Of a stretch of DNA of 46,619 nt, positions 27,658-41,174 are shown piece after piece. This DNA is from Deltaproteobacteria bacterium (GTDB lineage: Bacteria; Desulfobacterota; WTBG01; JAGOGO01): positions 1-46,619 of the forward strand of contig JAGOGO010000008.1 of the NCBI GenBank assembly GCA_017996625.1, given 5' to 3'. The position numbers and the translations under genes are program-made. The first letter of the stretch is position 1. Every line of letters starts with the position of its first letter. The notes beneath the pieces were generated by a model, which was not told where the DNA came from, made no database searches, and saw only the letters and a program-made list of their open reading frames with translations.

Positions 27658-27786
27658 TCAGCACGGAGGCCGTTTTGCCGTCCTTCGATGCTGCGGCATC
27701 CGCAAAGCGCACCCTGTTATCAGCAGGGCTGTCACTGCGTATACCGTAAACGCAAATACCATTACAAATAGTAACATCGCAATCAT
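27658..27786 (-). CDS. Possible 42-residue membrane peptide
   Basis: An ATG at 27786 with CAGGTG 5 nt upstream opens a 42-codon frame starting MIAMLLFVMVFAFTVYAVTA, a single hydrophobic helix followed by a basic tail (RMPQHRRTAKRPPC). The good ribosome binding site and helix favour a real small protein, but the surrounding DNA is repeat-rich and degenerate, and the function is unknown. Confidence 0.35.
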   Translation of the reverse strand: MIAMLLFVMVFAFTVYAVTALLITGCALRMPQHRRTAKRPPC

Positions 27787-28115: not shown

Positions 28116-28141
28116 ATCGCACGTGTCCAAAACAGGTACTG
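28116..28141. repeat. 26-nt dispersed repeat, copy 1
   Basis: ATCGCACGTGTCCAAAACAG followed by GTACTG matches 41051-41076 at 24 of 26 positions. Confidence 0.6.
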
Positions 28142-28423
28142 GAGAACTGATGCATCGTGCTCACACGCACTGTCTTCCTGAGACCCGGTTAAAGCGGGAC
28201 GAAGAATATCGGGGACACGAGGGCTGCATTCCTAAGATTCTTCAGTCGTCCGCCTCGGGCGGAACTCCCTCATAATGACAGTTCCTTAAACTTGAAATCG
28301 AAAAGAGACTTAGAAGACATGGAACTGTCTAAATTGTCTACTTCCATAGTACTTTTCGATACTCTTGTGGAAGACATTGAATTTGAATAGAAAATCTCTT
28401 CCCCAACTATTTATTGCGGATTC

Positions 28424-28451
28424 TTGACTTTTTCTATGGGATTAGTAGATT
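28424..28451 (+). promoter_or_regulatory. Candidate sigma-70 promoter of the short RNA
   Basis: TTGACT (28424-28429) and TAGATT (28446-28451) are spaced 16 bp; a TATATT follows at 28452-28457. Transcription would begin about 28458-28462. Confidence 0.45.
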
Positions 28452-28458
28452 TATATTA

Positions 28459-28518
28459 CTTCATATCATTTCTCCTCCTTTTGCGGCCTCAGGAATTCAT
28501 TTCTTGGGGCCGTTTTTT
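28459..28518 (+). ncRNA. Candidate ~60-nt small RNA with anti-Shine-Dalgarno tract
   Basis: Between a plausible promoter and a strong intrinsic terminator there is no ORF. The predicted transcript has a single-stranded pyrimidine tract, TTTCTCCTCCTTTT at 28469-28482, then the terminator hairpin. The CUCCUCCUUU stretch resembles the 3' tail of 16S rRNA and could pair with Shine-Dalgarno sequences. It is inferred from architecture only; no known RNA family is recognised. Confidence 0.4.
28483..28518 (+). terminator. Strong rho-independent terminator
   Basis: A 12-bp stem CGGCCTCAGGAA / TTCTTGGGGCCG (two G-U pairs) with a 5-nt loop is followed by TTTTTT. No protein gene lies immediately upstream on this strand. 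Confidence 0.8.
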
Positions 28519-28636
28519 GATTCCCGAATCTGAGAGACATTGAGCTTTGCGCACTTTTCACCACTCCTGTTTTCTGGTACTCTTGCGAGGCGGAGAACTC
28601 CACCTTTAACCCGACGTGAAGTGTGAGGAGATTTTT

Positions 28637-29197
28637 ATGGAGAAGAGAAAGATCGAATCGCTTTCAGAGGCCACCCGGCTCATCAATCACGGGCCGTGTC
28701 TGATCATCAGCGTTGGTGATAAGACGAAGGATAATCTGTTTACCGTGGCTTGGAATATGCCACTACGCAAGGACCCACCCCTGGTTGCCATTGAAACGGG
28801 GAAAGGTCATTACTCGTACGACTTTATCGCCCGTACGGGTGAATTCGCCATGAACGTGCCTCCTGCAACTATAATAAAAAGCGTCGTGGCTGCGGGAACG
28901 ATTACCGGAGCAGCAGTGGAGGATAAGTTCCAAAAGGTAGGTCTTACCCGTGAAGCTGCCGAGCATATCAAAGCACCGCTCGTGGCTGAAGCAGTGGCCA
29001 ATCTGGAATGCCGAGTTTGCCAGGTGGTGGATATGGGAGCTTCGGCGCTTCTTATCGCTCAGGTGGTCAGTGCCCGGGTGTCATGCGGCCTGTTCGATGA
29101 AAACGGCTGGAATTTCACAAACGGACTTCAGTTCATGCATCACCTGGGGGGCAGCCACTTTGCCGTCAGCGAACGGAAAATACATTCAGGCTCTTGA
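28637..29197 (+). CDS. Flavin reductase family protein (FMN-binding split barrel)
   Basis: The ATG at 28637 is preferred over one at 28616 because GAGGAG precedes it, giving 186 residues. The protein shows the split-barrel flavin-binding pattern: CLIISVGDKTKDNLFTVAWN (strand-turn with the FMN-phosphate region), MPLRKDPPLVAIE and FIARTGEFAMNVP near 65-77. A C-terminal GLQFMHHLGGSHFAV follows. Related proteins in anaerobes act as flavoredoxins or flavin reductases moving electrons to oxygen-sensitive partners. It stands alone, so the partner is unknown. Confidence 0.85.
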   Translation: MEKRKIESLSEATRLINHGPCLIISVGDKTKDNLFTVAWNMPLRKDPPLVAIETGKGHYSYDFIARTGEFAMNVPPATIIKSVVAAGTITGAAVEDKFQKVGLTREAAEHIKAPLVAEAVANLECRVCQVVDMGASALLIAQVVSARVSCGLFDENGWNFTNGLQFMHHLGGSHFAVSERKIHSGS

Positions 29198-31344: not shown

Positions 31345-31711
31345 AAGACTATCTCCCTTCTGATAGGAAGCTATTGAACAGTAAGGCGTAAGAAGTGAGG
31401 AGTTAGAAGAATATGCCCTCGCTGCTTACCCGTGATCTCGCGCAGGGACGCAGAGCACGCGGAGAAGAGGGTTTAGGAGATTGCGACGTCGACCCGCAGG
31501 GAACATGAGGAAAGAGGGTGGTCGTTGCGAGCGAGTTTCTAACGAGCGCGGCAATCTCAGCTTGAGGGCGGGTCTGCCCGCAATGACAATCCTTTTTCCC
31601 CTGCGCCCTCTGCGCCAGGAAACAGTAAAGAGTGAAGAGTCAGGAGTTAGAAATGTCCCTCGTGCCTGCCCGTGATTTCATGCGCAGGCTGGGCACCAGG
31701 GAAGGATCTCC

Positions 31712-31746
31712 TTACTCCTTACTCCTTACTCCTTACTTTTTACTTC
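31712..31746. repeat. Heptamer tandem array (TTACTCC)
   Basis: Five in-phase 7-mers: TTACTCC three times, TTACTTT, TTACTTC. It runs straight into the 63-bp tandem element. Confidence 0.85.
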
Positions 31747-31869
31747 CAACGAAGTGGGCATCACTTCGTTGCTCATAGGTTGCCGCCACGCGGCTTACTG
31801 GCGCTTTTCCAACGAAGTGGGCATCACTTCGTTGCTCATAGGTTGCCGCCACGCGGCTTACTGGCGCTT
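31744..31869. repeat. 63-bp element in perfect tandem duplication
   Basis: Bases 31744-31806 and 31807-31869 are identical 63-bp units beginning TTCCAACGAAGTGGGCATCA. Each has two hairpins: AACGAAGTG-ggcat-CACTTCGTT and GCCGC-cac-GCGGC. A third copy lies inverted at 35093-35158. The unit is open in several frames, so short ORFs here are repeat products. Confidence 0.92.
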
Positions 31870-31895
31870 TTTACTTTTCACGCCAGTCGCTGGTC

Positions 31896-33137
31896 TCAGG
31901 AGGTGCAGAGTAGTTTTTCCTTTATCGGAGTGCGGAGTTTTCTCAGTGCGTCCTGCTCGATCTGTCGAATGCGTTCCCGGGTCACTCCAAAATGCTCTCC
32001 AACCTCTTCCAGCGTGTATTCGGTCTTCTCTCCGATTCCGAACCGCATCCGGATCACCTTCTCTTCTCTCGGTGTAAGAGTAGTCAAGGCACTCTGAATC
32101 TTCTCGGCCATCTCTTTGCGCAGCACTTCCTGTGCCGGATCTTCACCTTTCTTGTTTTCCAGCAGTTCTCCAATCGTTGTGTCCTCATTCTCTCCGATTG
32201 GCGTTTCTAGGGATACCGGGCTGTACACGCTTCTGGCCAGGACCTCGATGTTCATGACTTCTTCGACCGGAAGATCTATCGCAGCGGCGATTTCTTCCAT
32301 CATCGGCTTGCGTCCGAGAACCTGCGTAAGGTCCTGTCGTATCTTATTCAGTTTCTCAACCGTATCGCTGAAGCGTACGGAAACCCTGATGGTGCGGCTT
32401 TGTTCGGTTATGGCGCGATTGATAGCCTGGTAGATCCACCAGCTGGCATAGGTGCTGAACTTGAATCCGCGCTCGTATTCAAATTTGTCCACCGCCTTTA
32501 GCAAGCCGAGGTTGCCCTCCTGAATCAGATCGAGAAGAGACAATCCCCGGTCCCGATGGGCATACTGCTGGGCAATGGTGATAACCAAACGCAGATTGGC
32601 TTCGACAATTGACTCCTTTTGCTCGTGAATTTCGGTCCGCAGCTCATCGGTACGCTGCTTGCAGCGCAAAAGGCGGGAAACGGAGAGGCCGGATTCCTGT
32701 TCAACCAGAGCTCTTTCAACCACCTTGAGCCGCTGACATGCCTCAGCGACCAAGTGAATGAATTCATTCACCATATTCTCATTCCAGTGGACCTGCATGA
32801 ACATCCCCACCATCTTTCGCTGTTTGCGTCCGTCATGCTGTGATCGATTCTTCTCCCTAATCTCTCGTGCTTCCCGGATTTGCGCCAAAAAGTCACGCTC
32901 CAGTTCTTCTTCGAGATCAGTGTTATGAGCTTCAACAATATCAAACACCGACATCGTCCGCGAAACCACTTCTCGTTCGAGCCGAAGTACTTCCTCCTGA
33001 ACCAGTGGAATTCCGAACAGGAGACGCAGCAAGGCTGACTTCTTTCTCTCCAGAAGCTTAAACGCCTCGCGTTCGGTTTCCCGATCAAACACTCTGTATT
33101 TTCCAACATCTTTAAAATAAGGAGTAGCAAGTTCCAT
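31896..33137 (-). CDS. Sigma-70 family RNA polymerase sigma factor (group 2-like)
   Basis: The start at ATG 33137 ([10 protein letters not shown]) is chosen because GAGG sits 9 nt upstream; a longer frame to 33305 encodes an unlikely N-terminus. The product has 413 residues with regions 1.2 ([10 protein letters not shown]), 2.2-2.4 ([20 protein letters not shown] and [19 protein letters not shown]), 3 and 4 (helix-turn-helix [19 protein letters not shown] near the end). After 2.4 it has [14 protein letters not shown] instead of the RpoD DQARTIRIPVHM, and a non-conserved spacer ([15 protein letters not shown]). It lacks region 1.1. It therefore looks like an alternative factor rather than the housekeeping RpoD. 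It has its own promoter and a structured leader. Confidence 0.93.
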
Positions 33138-40819: not shown

Positions 40820-41174
40820 ATTTTGGCATCTGCATACAGCTGTCAGGATTTCTGGGGTCCTGGCAGGATATTGAAAAGGCTCATTCGCCCGTCGGCAGGA
40901 TACTGCCTGAAGCGCACCCACCGAAGCCTCTATCTACACCGGGAGGCGAGACTGACGAATTAGTGCTGCTGCTGACTCTGGCTTGTGAATTGCCGACTTC
41001 TGATTGCAGACTTTGGTCCTAAATTCAAAATCAGAACTCTCACATTCTAAATCGCACATGTCCAGAACAGGTACTGAAAGCTTTGATTTCCATAGTCCTG
41101 TTCCAGCCTATTGTCGCCAGCAGCGATCCCAAATCTTTAACCATTCTGCGACAGCCTGATTTCTAAGCAGCCTG
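40820..41174. other. Spacer with one dispersed repeat
   Basis: About 355 bp without a supported gene. It contains the second copy of the 26-nt repeat (41051-41076). Confidence 0.45.
41051..41076. repeat. 26-nt dispersed repeat, copy 2
   Basis: Direct copy of 28116-28141, 24 of 26 identical, nearly 13 kb away. Confidence 0.6.

Follow-up and report, generated by a model that had tools for sequence, protein, structure and literature searches.

Small RNAs (sRNAs) that depend on sigmaE and act as repressors are known from Proteobacteria and, recently, from Fusobacteria. In Fusobacterium nucleatum, which is without Hfq and ProQ, FoxI and FoxJ have a sigmaE-dependent promoter like that of rpoE and repress envelope proteins, with a C-rich seed that lies in a linear stretch in FoxI and in a loop in FoxJ (PMC11005410). 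RybB, MicA and VrrA combine a sigmaE promoter, a short RNA with an intrinsic terminator and a bias toward envelope mRNAs, and VrrA, an RNA of 140 nucleotides (nt), is not strictly Hfq-dependent (PMC1804206, PMC2628432). The multicopy, envelope-stress-induced LhrC RNAs of Listeria (111-114 nt) are near-identical, are controlled by the two-component system LisRK, dispense with Hfq and carry three redundant CU-rich sites able to block the Shine-Dalgarno (SD) sequence (PMC4132741). The CcsR ("cuckoo") sRNAs of Rhodobacter and its relatives are arranged in tandem and processed by RNase E from a single transcript that includes a DUF1127 gene and starts at an RpoHI/RpoHII promoter (PMC10253847). Here we describe an element from the 1.4 kb that separate a minus-strand BipA/TypA gene from a plus-strand flavin-reductase gene in G000, a 3.1-Mb metagenome-assembled genome of the Desulfobacterota (Thermodesulfobacteriota), whose contig C92 (46,619 nt in all) is referred to below as the window. 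The element and its relatives make it likely, in our judgement, that positions 28458-28519 encode an sRNA of about 62 nt from a multi-copy family with an anti-SD seed, which would form the repressing arm of an envelope-stress response that operates without Hfq.

The initial annotation had proposed a promoter, a very good terminator and a C-rich tract resembling the 16S rRNA tail at this place, and all three are present (Table 1). In the window copy TTGACT and TAGATT, 16 nt apart, are followed by TTTCTCCTCCTTTT and then by a strong terminator, the stem-loop of which (28483-28513) has 13 pairs and a 5-nt loop and runs into six T residues. Folding of the predicted RNA gave this terminator as the sole structure (-22.1 kcal/mol, z-score -6.56, with 0 of 200 shuffled sequences as good) and left the tract single-stranded, with a probability of being unpaired of about 0.99; the hairpin occurs once in the genome. 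Since the genome's own 16S rRNA ends in GGATCACCTCCTTTCTA, the core common to the tract and the 16S tail is CCTCCTTT. The element had also been described as free of open reading frames, which is not strictly so: a 35-codon frame on the plus strand (28436-28543, MGLVDLYYFISF...) overlaps it, and was rejected as a gene for want of both an SD sequence and a Pfam match.

The architecture recurs. An exact search for the 12-mer TCTCCTCCTTTT in 17 genomes of the class returned 46 sites, and an intrinsic terminator beginning no more than 8 nt after the 12-mer was found at 3/3 sites in G000, at 2/3 in G002, a genome of the same taxonomic family, and at 0/40 in the remaining genomes of the class (Fisher's exact test, 4.4e-6, or 1.4e-5 when the repeat copies of G011 are excluded). 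The terminators that follow the exact 12-mers in G000 and G002 have predicted energies of -21.6 to -24.9 kcal/mol, and in G000 each of the three comes no more than 3 nt after its 12-mer. The many copies of the 12-mer in G011 were rejected as members because they belong to a different repeat that has no terminator; this repeat, AAGACGCTACGCGTCTTCTCCTCCTTTTCTTTG..., is present in at least nine copies (L079, L090, L098, L105, L107, L109-L113) and is unrelated to the sRNA family. When one mismatch was allowed in the 14-mer tract, 14 occurrences were found in G000, among them C60:10340 and C98:9164, where TCTCTCCTCCTTTT is directly followed by strong terminators of unrelated sequence. Several other one-mismatch copies are true SD sequences, and the minus strand of the window element reads AAAAGGAGGAGAA followed by ATG, as would be expected if the tract were by chance the reverse complement of a strong SD sequence beside an ordinary terminator. 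We consider such a coincidence very improbable given the coupling of tract and terminator (5/6 against 0/40), and a gene on the minus strand with the tract for its SD sequence was rejected because the frames there stop after two codons.

The family has at least three units in G000 and five in G002, eight in the count used here, with predicted RNAs of 54-71 nt in which the tract begins at nt 14-23 and is accessible throughout (probability of being unpaired, 0.86-1.0). At contig C166 of G002 a second unit stands in tandem with the first, consisting of GAACTT-N-GGTCTTA, CTCTCCCCTCC and a terminator; the terminator loop of the first unit of this pair (G2C166a, locus L150) contains a further CUCCUCCC, whereas every other copy has a single CU site. 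Similarity between copies does not extend beyond the tract and the few bases next to it, while hairpins and flanks are unrelated, and the next downstream gene is convergent in five of the seven loci examined. Taken together, these features mark the units as short RNAs that stand alone, not as repeats or leaders, and they bear on the possibility that the window element acts in cis as an attenuator of the flavin-reductase gene, with the terminator stopping most transcripts and the CU tract pairing with the gene's SD sequence in those that read through. That gene is co-directional and starts 128 nt past the terminator, pairing of UCUCCUC with GAGGAGA is possible in the long RNA, and the duplex predicted between the tract and the flavin-reductase leader reaches -21.8 kcal/mol; however, a CCTCC tract pairs with most SD sequences anyway, the fold of the long RNA is weak (z-score -1.56), no Rfam riboswitch matches, and the regions upstream of orthologous flavin-reductase genes are without the element, so that we regard a cis-acting leader as improbable. 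The original proposal, a separate sRNA that acts in trans through an anti-SD seed, is thus favoured: the tract is unpaired in every copy, the copies do not serve as leaders of the genes behind them, and the recurrence of the design in G000 and G002 runs counter to the lack of conservation that had been named as a refutation. The earlier account had not noticed the family, the promoter that the other copies share, or the exception that the window copy makes to it.

The seven other units carry a sigmaE-like promoter of the type TGAACTT-N14-TGTCTA, or more generally GAAC(T/C)-N-TGTCT(A/T). Searching the class for promoter and tract jointly (GAAC-N15-19-GTCT-N-CTCCTCCT) recovered six units, all of them in G000 or G002 and each with a terminator, and two sites elsewhere, both without; when the strict pattern was run against the phylum (395 genomes), it returned the same six and one unit in G205, as compared to one match for the reversed control pattern. 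These promoter-tract patterns took the place of a covariance model because MAFFT misplaced the unrelated hairpins in alignments. The same motif lies upstream of an extracytoplasmic function (ECF) sigma factor gene of the rpoE type, as TGAACTT-N14-GGTCATT in G000 and TGAACTT-N14-TGTCTTA in G002, and in both genomes this gene is followed by an anti-sigma-like and an rseB-like gene. In G000 the operon encodes an RpoE-like sigma factor (TIGR02939, 4e-54, below the cutoff of that model), a zf-HC2 anti-sigma factor and a MucB_RseB protein (2e-14). Since a promoter like that of the rpoE/anti-sigma/rseB operon precedes all but one of the eight copies, the family probably serves an envelope-stress response as its noncoding, repressing arm.

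The window copy differs. The promoter 7-mers are 14 nt apart in eight of nine sites, and a weight matrix made from nine sites, whose own scores are thereby favoured, gave 18.5-20.1 for the other copies and 1.97 for the window copy, where no sigmaE-like promoter was found; even the highest-scoring 55-nt stretch of the window fell below each of the seven units. A GTAGA lies 26 nt upstream of the window tract, as compared to a GTCT box 24-31 nt upstream of the tract in the other copies. It follows that this copy is a paralogue driven by sigma70 or one in decay, and we give first place to a working paralogue that has exchanged the sigmaE-like promoter for a sigma70-type one and would, under that promoter, make the family's seed available independently of sigmaE. 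The main rival, to which we assign a distinctly smaller chance, is that the copy is a decaying member of a real family, with its sigmaE promoter gone and its transcription ended: it alone lacks the motif, degenerate repeats adjoin it, and the C that precedes the tract in the other copies is missing. Both the 13-pair terminator and the full 12-mer are nonetheless intact and are spaced as in the rest of the family, a sigma70-type promoter lies at the matching distance, and the tract would be expected to drift if selection were absent.

Each unit would consist of a short and mostly unstructured 5' part (13-22 nt), UCUCCUCC(UUUU) and, directly after it, the terminator. We infer that the units are transcribed and that the tract, as a mimic of the 16S tail, would pair with SD sequences and block binding of the 30S subunit in trans, with the letters adjoining the SD selecting the targets; genes with AAGGAGGAGAGAATG-type leaders would be expected to respond, and the family probably shuts off the translation of envelope proteins. 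Among 287 roughly called gene starts from the fetched parts of G000 and G002, predicted pairing was stronger for export-like genes, defined by an N-terminal hydrophobic segment (median -17.9 vs -15.1, p = 4e-4), a bias which 0 of 200 scrambled baits reproduced, which persisted after correction for 16S-SD strength (p = 0.004), and whose best predicted targets include putative secreted proteins and a pilin. This bias hints at envelope-protein targets, and is suggestive only because the sample is partial and partly motif-selected. Hfq (PF17209) was not found in G000, G001, G002 or G205; other RNA chaperones were not searched for. We therefore put forward, with less confidence than the assignment of the window element itself and as slightly short of even, the wider proposal that an Hfq-less lineage of the Desulfobacterota meets envelope stress with a multi-copy family of minimal 16S-tail mimic RNAs, one paralogue of which has been re-wired to a housekeeping promoter.

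Several observations weigh against the main interpretation, that of an sRNA family with an anti-SD seed. The family is carried by only two genomes, with no shared gene neighbourhood seen, and no copy was found in G001, a 76% complete genome of the same taxonomic family. At the window copy, 22% of random stretches score as high for the sigmaE-like motif, and sigma70-type matches occur in the region at chance density (2 observed vs 2.6 expected), although by a rough estimate a placement just upstream of the tract is less likely to arise by chance (0.0005 per position over some 13 positions, or about 0.7%). The target comparison relied on simple gene calls that covered part of the genes, on loci partly selected by motif and on a hydrophobicity rule for export, and the Hfq result on draft genomes, with the exception of the single-contig G205.

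Functionally, FoxI/FoxJ are the closest analogues, followed by RybB/MicA/VrrA and LhrC; in sequence, no relationship to them was detected. The family, as read from sequence alone, resembles FoxI/FoxJ in its rpoE-type promoter, C-rich seed and Hfq-less host, and differs in phylum, in sequence, in size (FoxJ is ~156 nt) and in number, there being two Fox sRNAs against 3-5 copies here. With RybB, MicA and VrrA it shares the sigmaE promoter, the short terminated RNA and the envelope bias (here predicted); the predicted RNAs are shorter than VrrA, and the seeds of these three are not known to be 16S-tail mimics. Copy number, CU-rich sites that could block the SD sequence, the probable link to envelope stress and the predicted independence of Hfq recall LhrC, from which the predicted units depart in length, unrelated hairpins, a single CU site in all but G2C166a and type of control. 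The CcsR RNAs, which have anti-SD loops, likewise form a set of related sRNAs whose stress regulation runs through an alternative sigma factor, but they arise from a single processed transcript, whereas the units here have separate promoters and terminators. Rfam returned only sub-threshold matches (VrrA, nse_sRNA and Spot 42 models, 17-18 bits against gathering thresholds of 50-80), and a literature search did not find UCUCCUCC in connection with an sRNA. When the element served as a DNA query against relatives, phages, plasmids and viral contigs, no match rose above chance, because the tract and promoter alone are conserved and the hairpin is not. If the interpretation is correct, a third phylum has an independent, multi-copy and Hfq-free version of such regulation, which would support the view that envelope-stress responses generally include a noncoding repressing arm; units this small also raise the question of where the specificity of a near-universal anti-SD seed comes from.

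The unit in G205 (L151, minus strand, about 1440-1560) has a sigmaE-like promoter, a small hairpin with CUCUCCUCCU in its loop and, later, a long terminator; it is longer than the units of G000 and G002 and adjoins two small heat-shock-protein-like (hsp20-like) genes. It appears related in design to the family, with which it may share an ancestor. As part of the wider proposal above, it would point to a design that is either ancient in the phylum or has arisen there more than once.

Table 1. Coordinates of the predicted sRNA, its parts and its neighbours in the window.
Feature	Position	Strand	Basis or remark
-35-like hexamer TTGACT	28424-28429	+	sigma70-type, 9/12 match together with the -10; not sigmaE-like
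-10-like hexamer TAGATT	28446-28451	+	16-nt spacer after TTGACT; 17 nt upstream of tract
Predicted ~62-nt sRNA	28458-28519	+	5' end inferred; folding
Anti-SD tract UUUCUCCUCCUUUU, proposed seed	28469-28482	+	sequence, 16S comparison, unpaired in fold
Intrinsic terminator, 13-pair stem + T6	28483-28518	+	sequence and folding
Degenerate dispersed repeat, upstream, outside sRNA	28116-28357	not assigned	genome comparison
Flavin-reductase gene (PF01613)	28646-29197	+	starts 128 nt past terminator; possible cis target only

The description of the region as littered with repeats holds for its upstream part, where a degenerate dispersed repeat of ~240 nt ends at about 28357, and not for the element, which lies outside it. 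Eight or more copies of this repeat, some of them inverted, are present in the genome, and the window has another, partial one at 41051-41076. On the minus strand, 27658-27786 contains a reading frame for a 42-aa membrane peptide (MIAMLLFVMVFAFTVYAV...), which has a plausible SD sequence and no significant Pfam match. At 31672-32097, just past the 3' end of a minus-strand sigma-70 gene, there is a short tandem duplication whose translation shows FQRSGHHFVAHRLPPRGLLALF twice.
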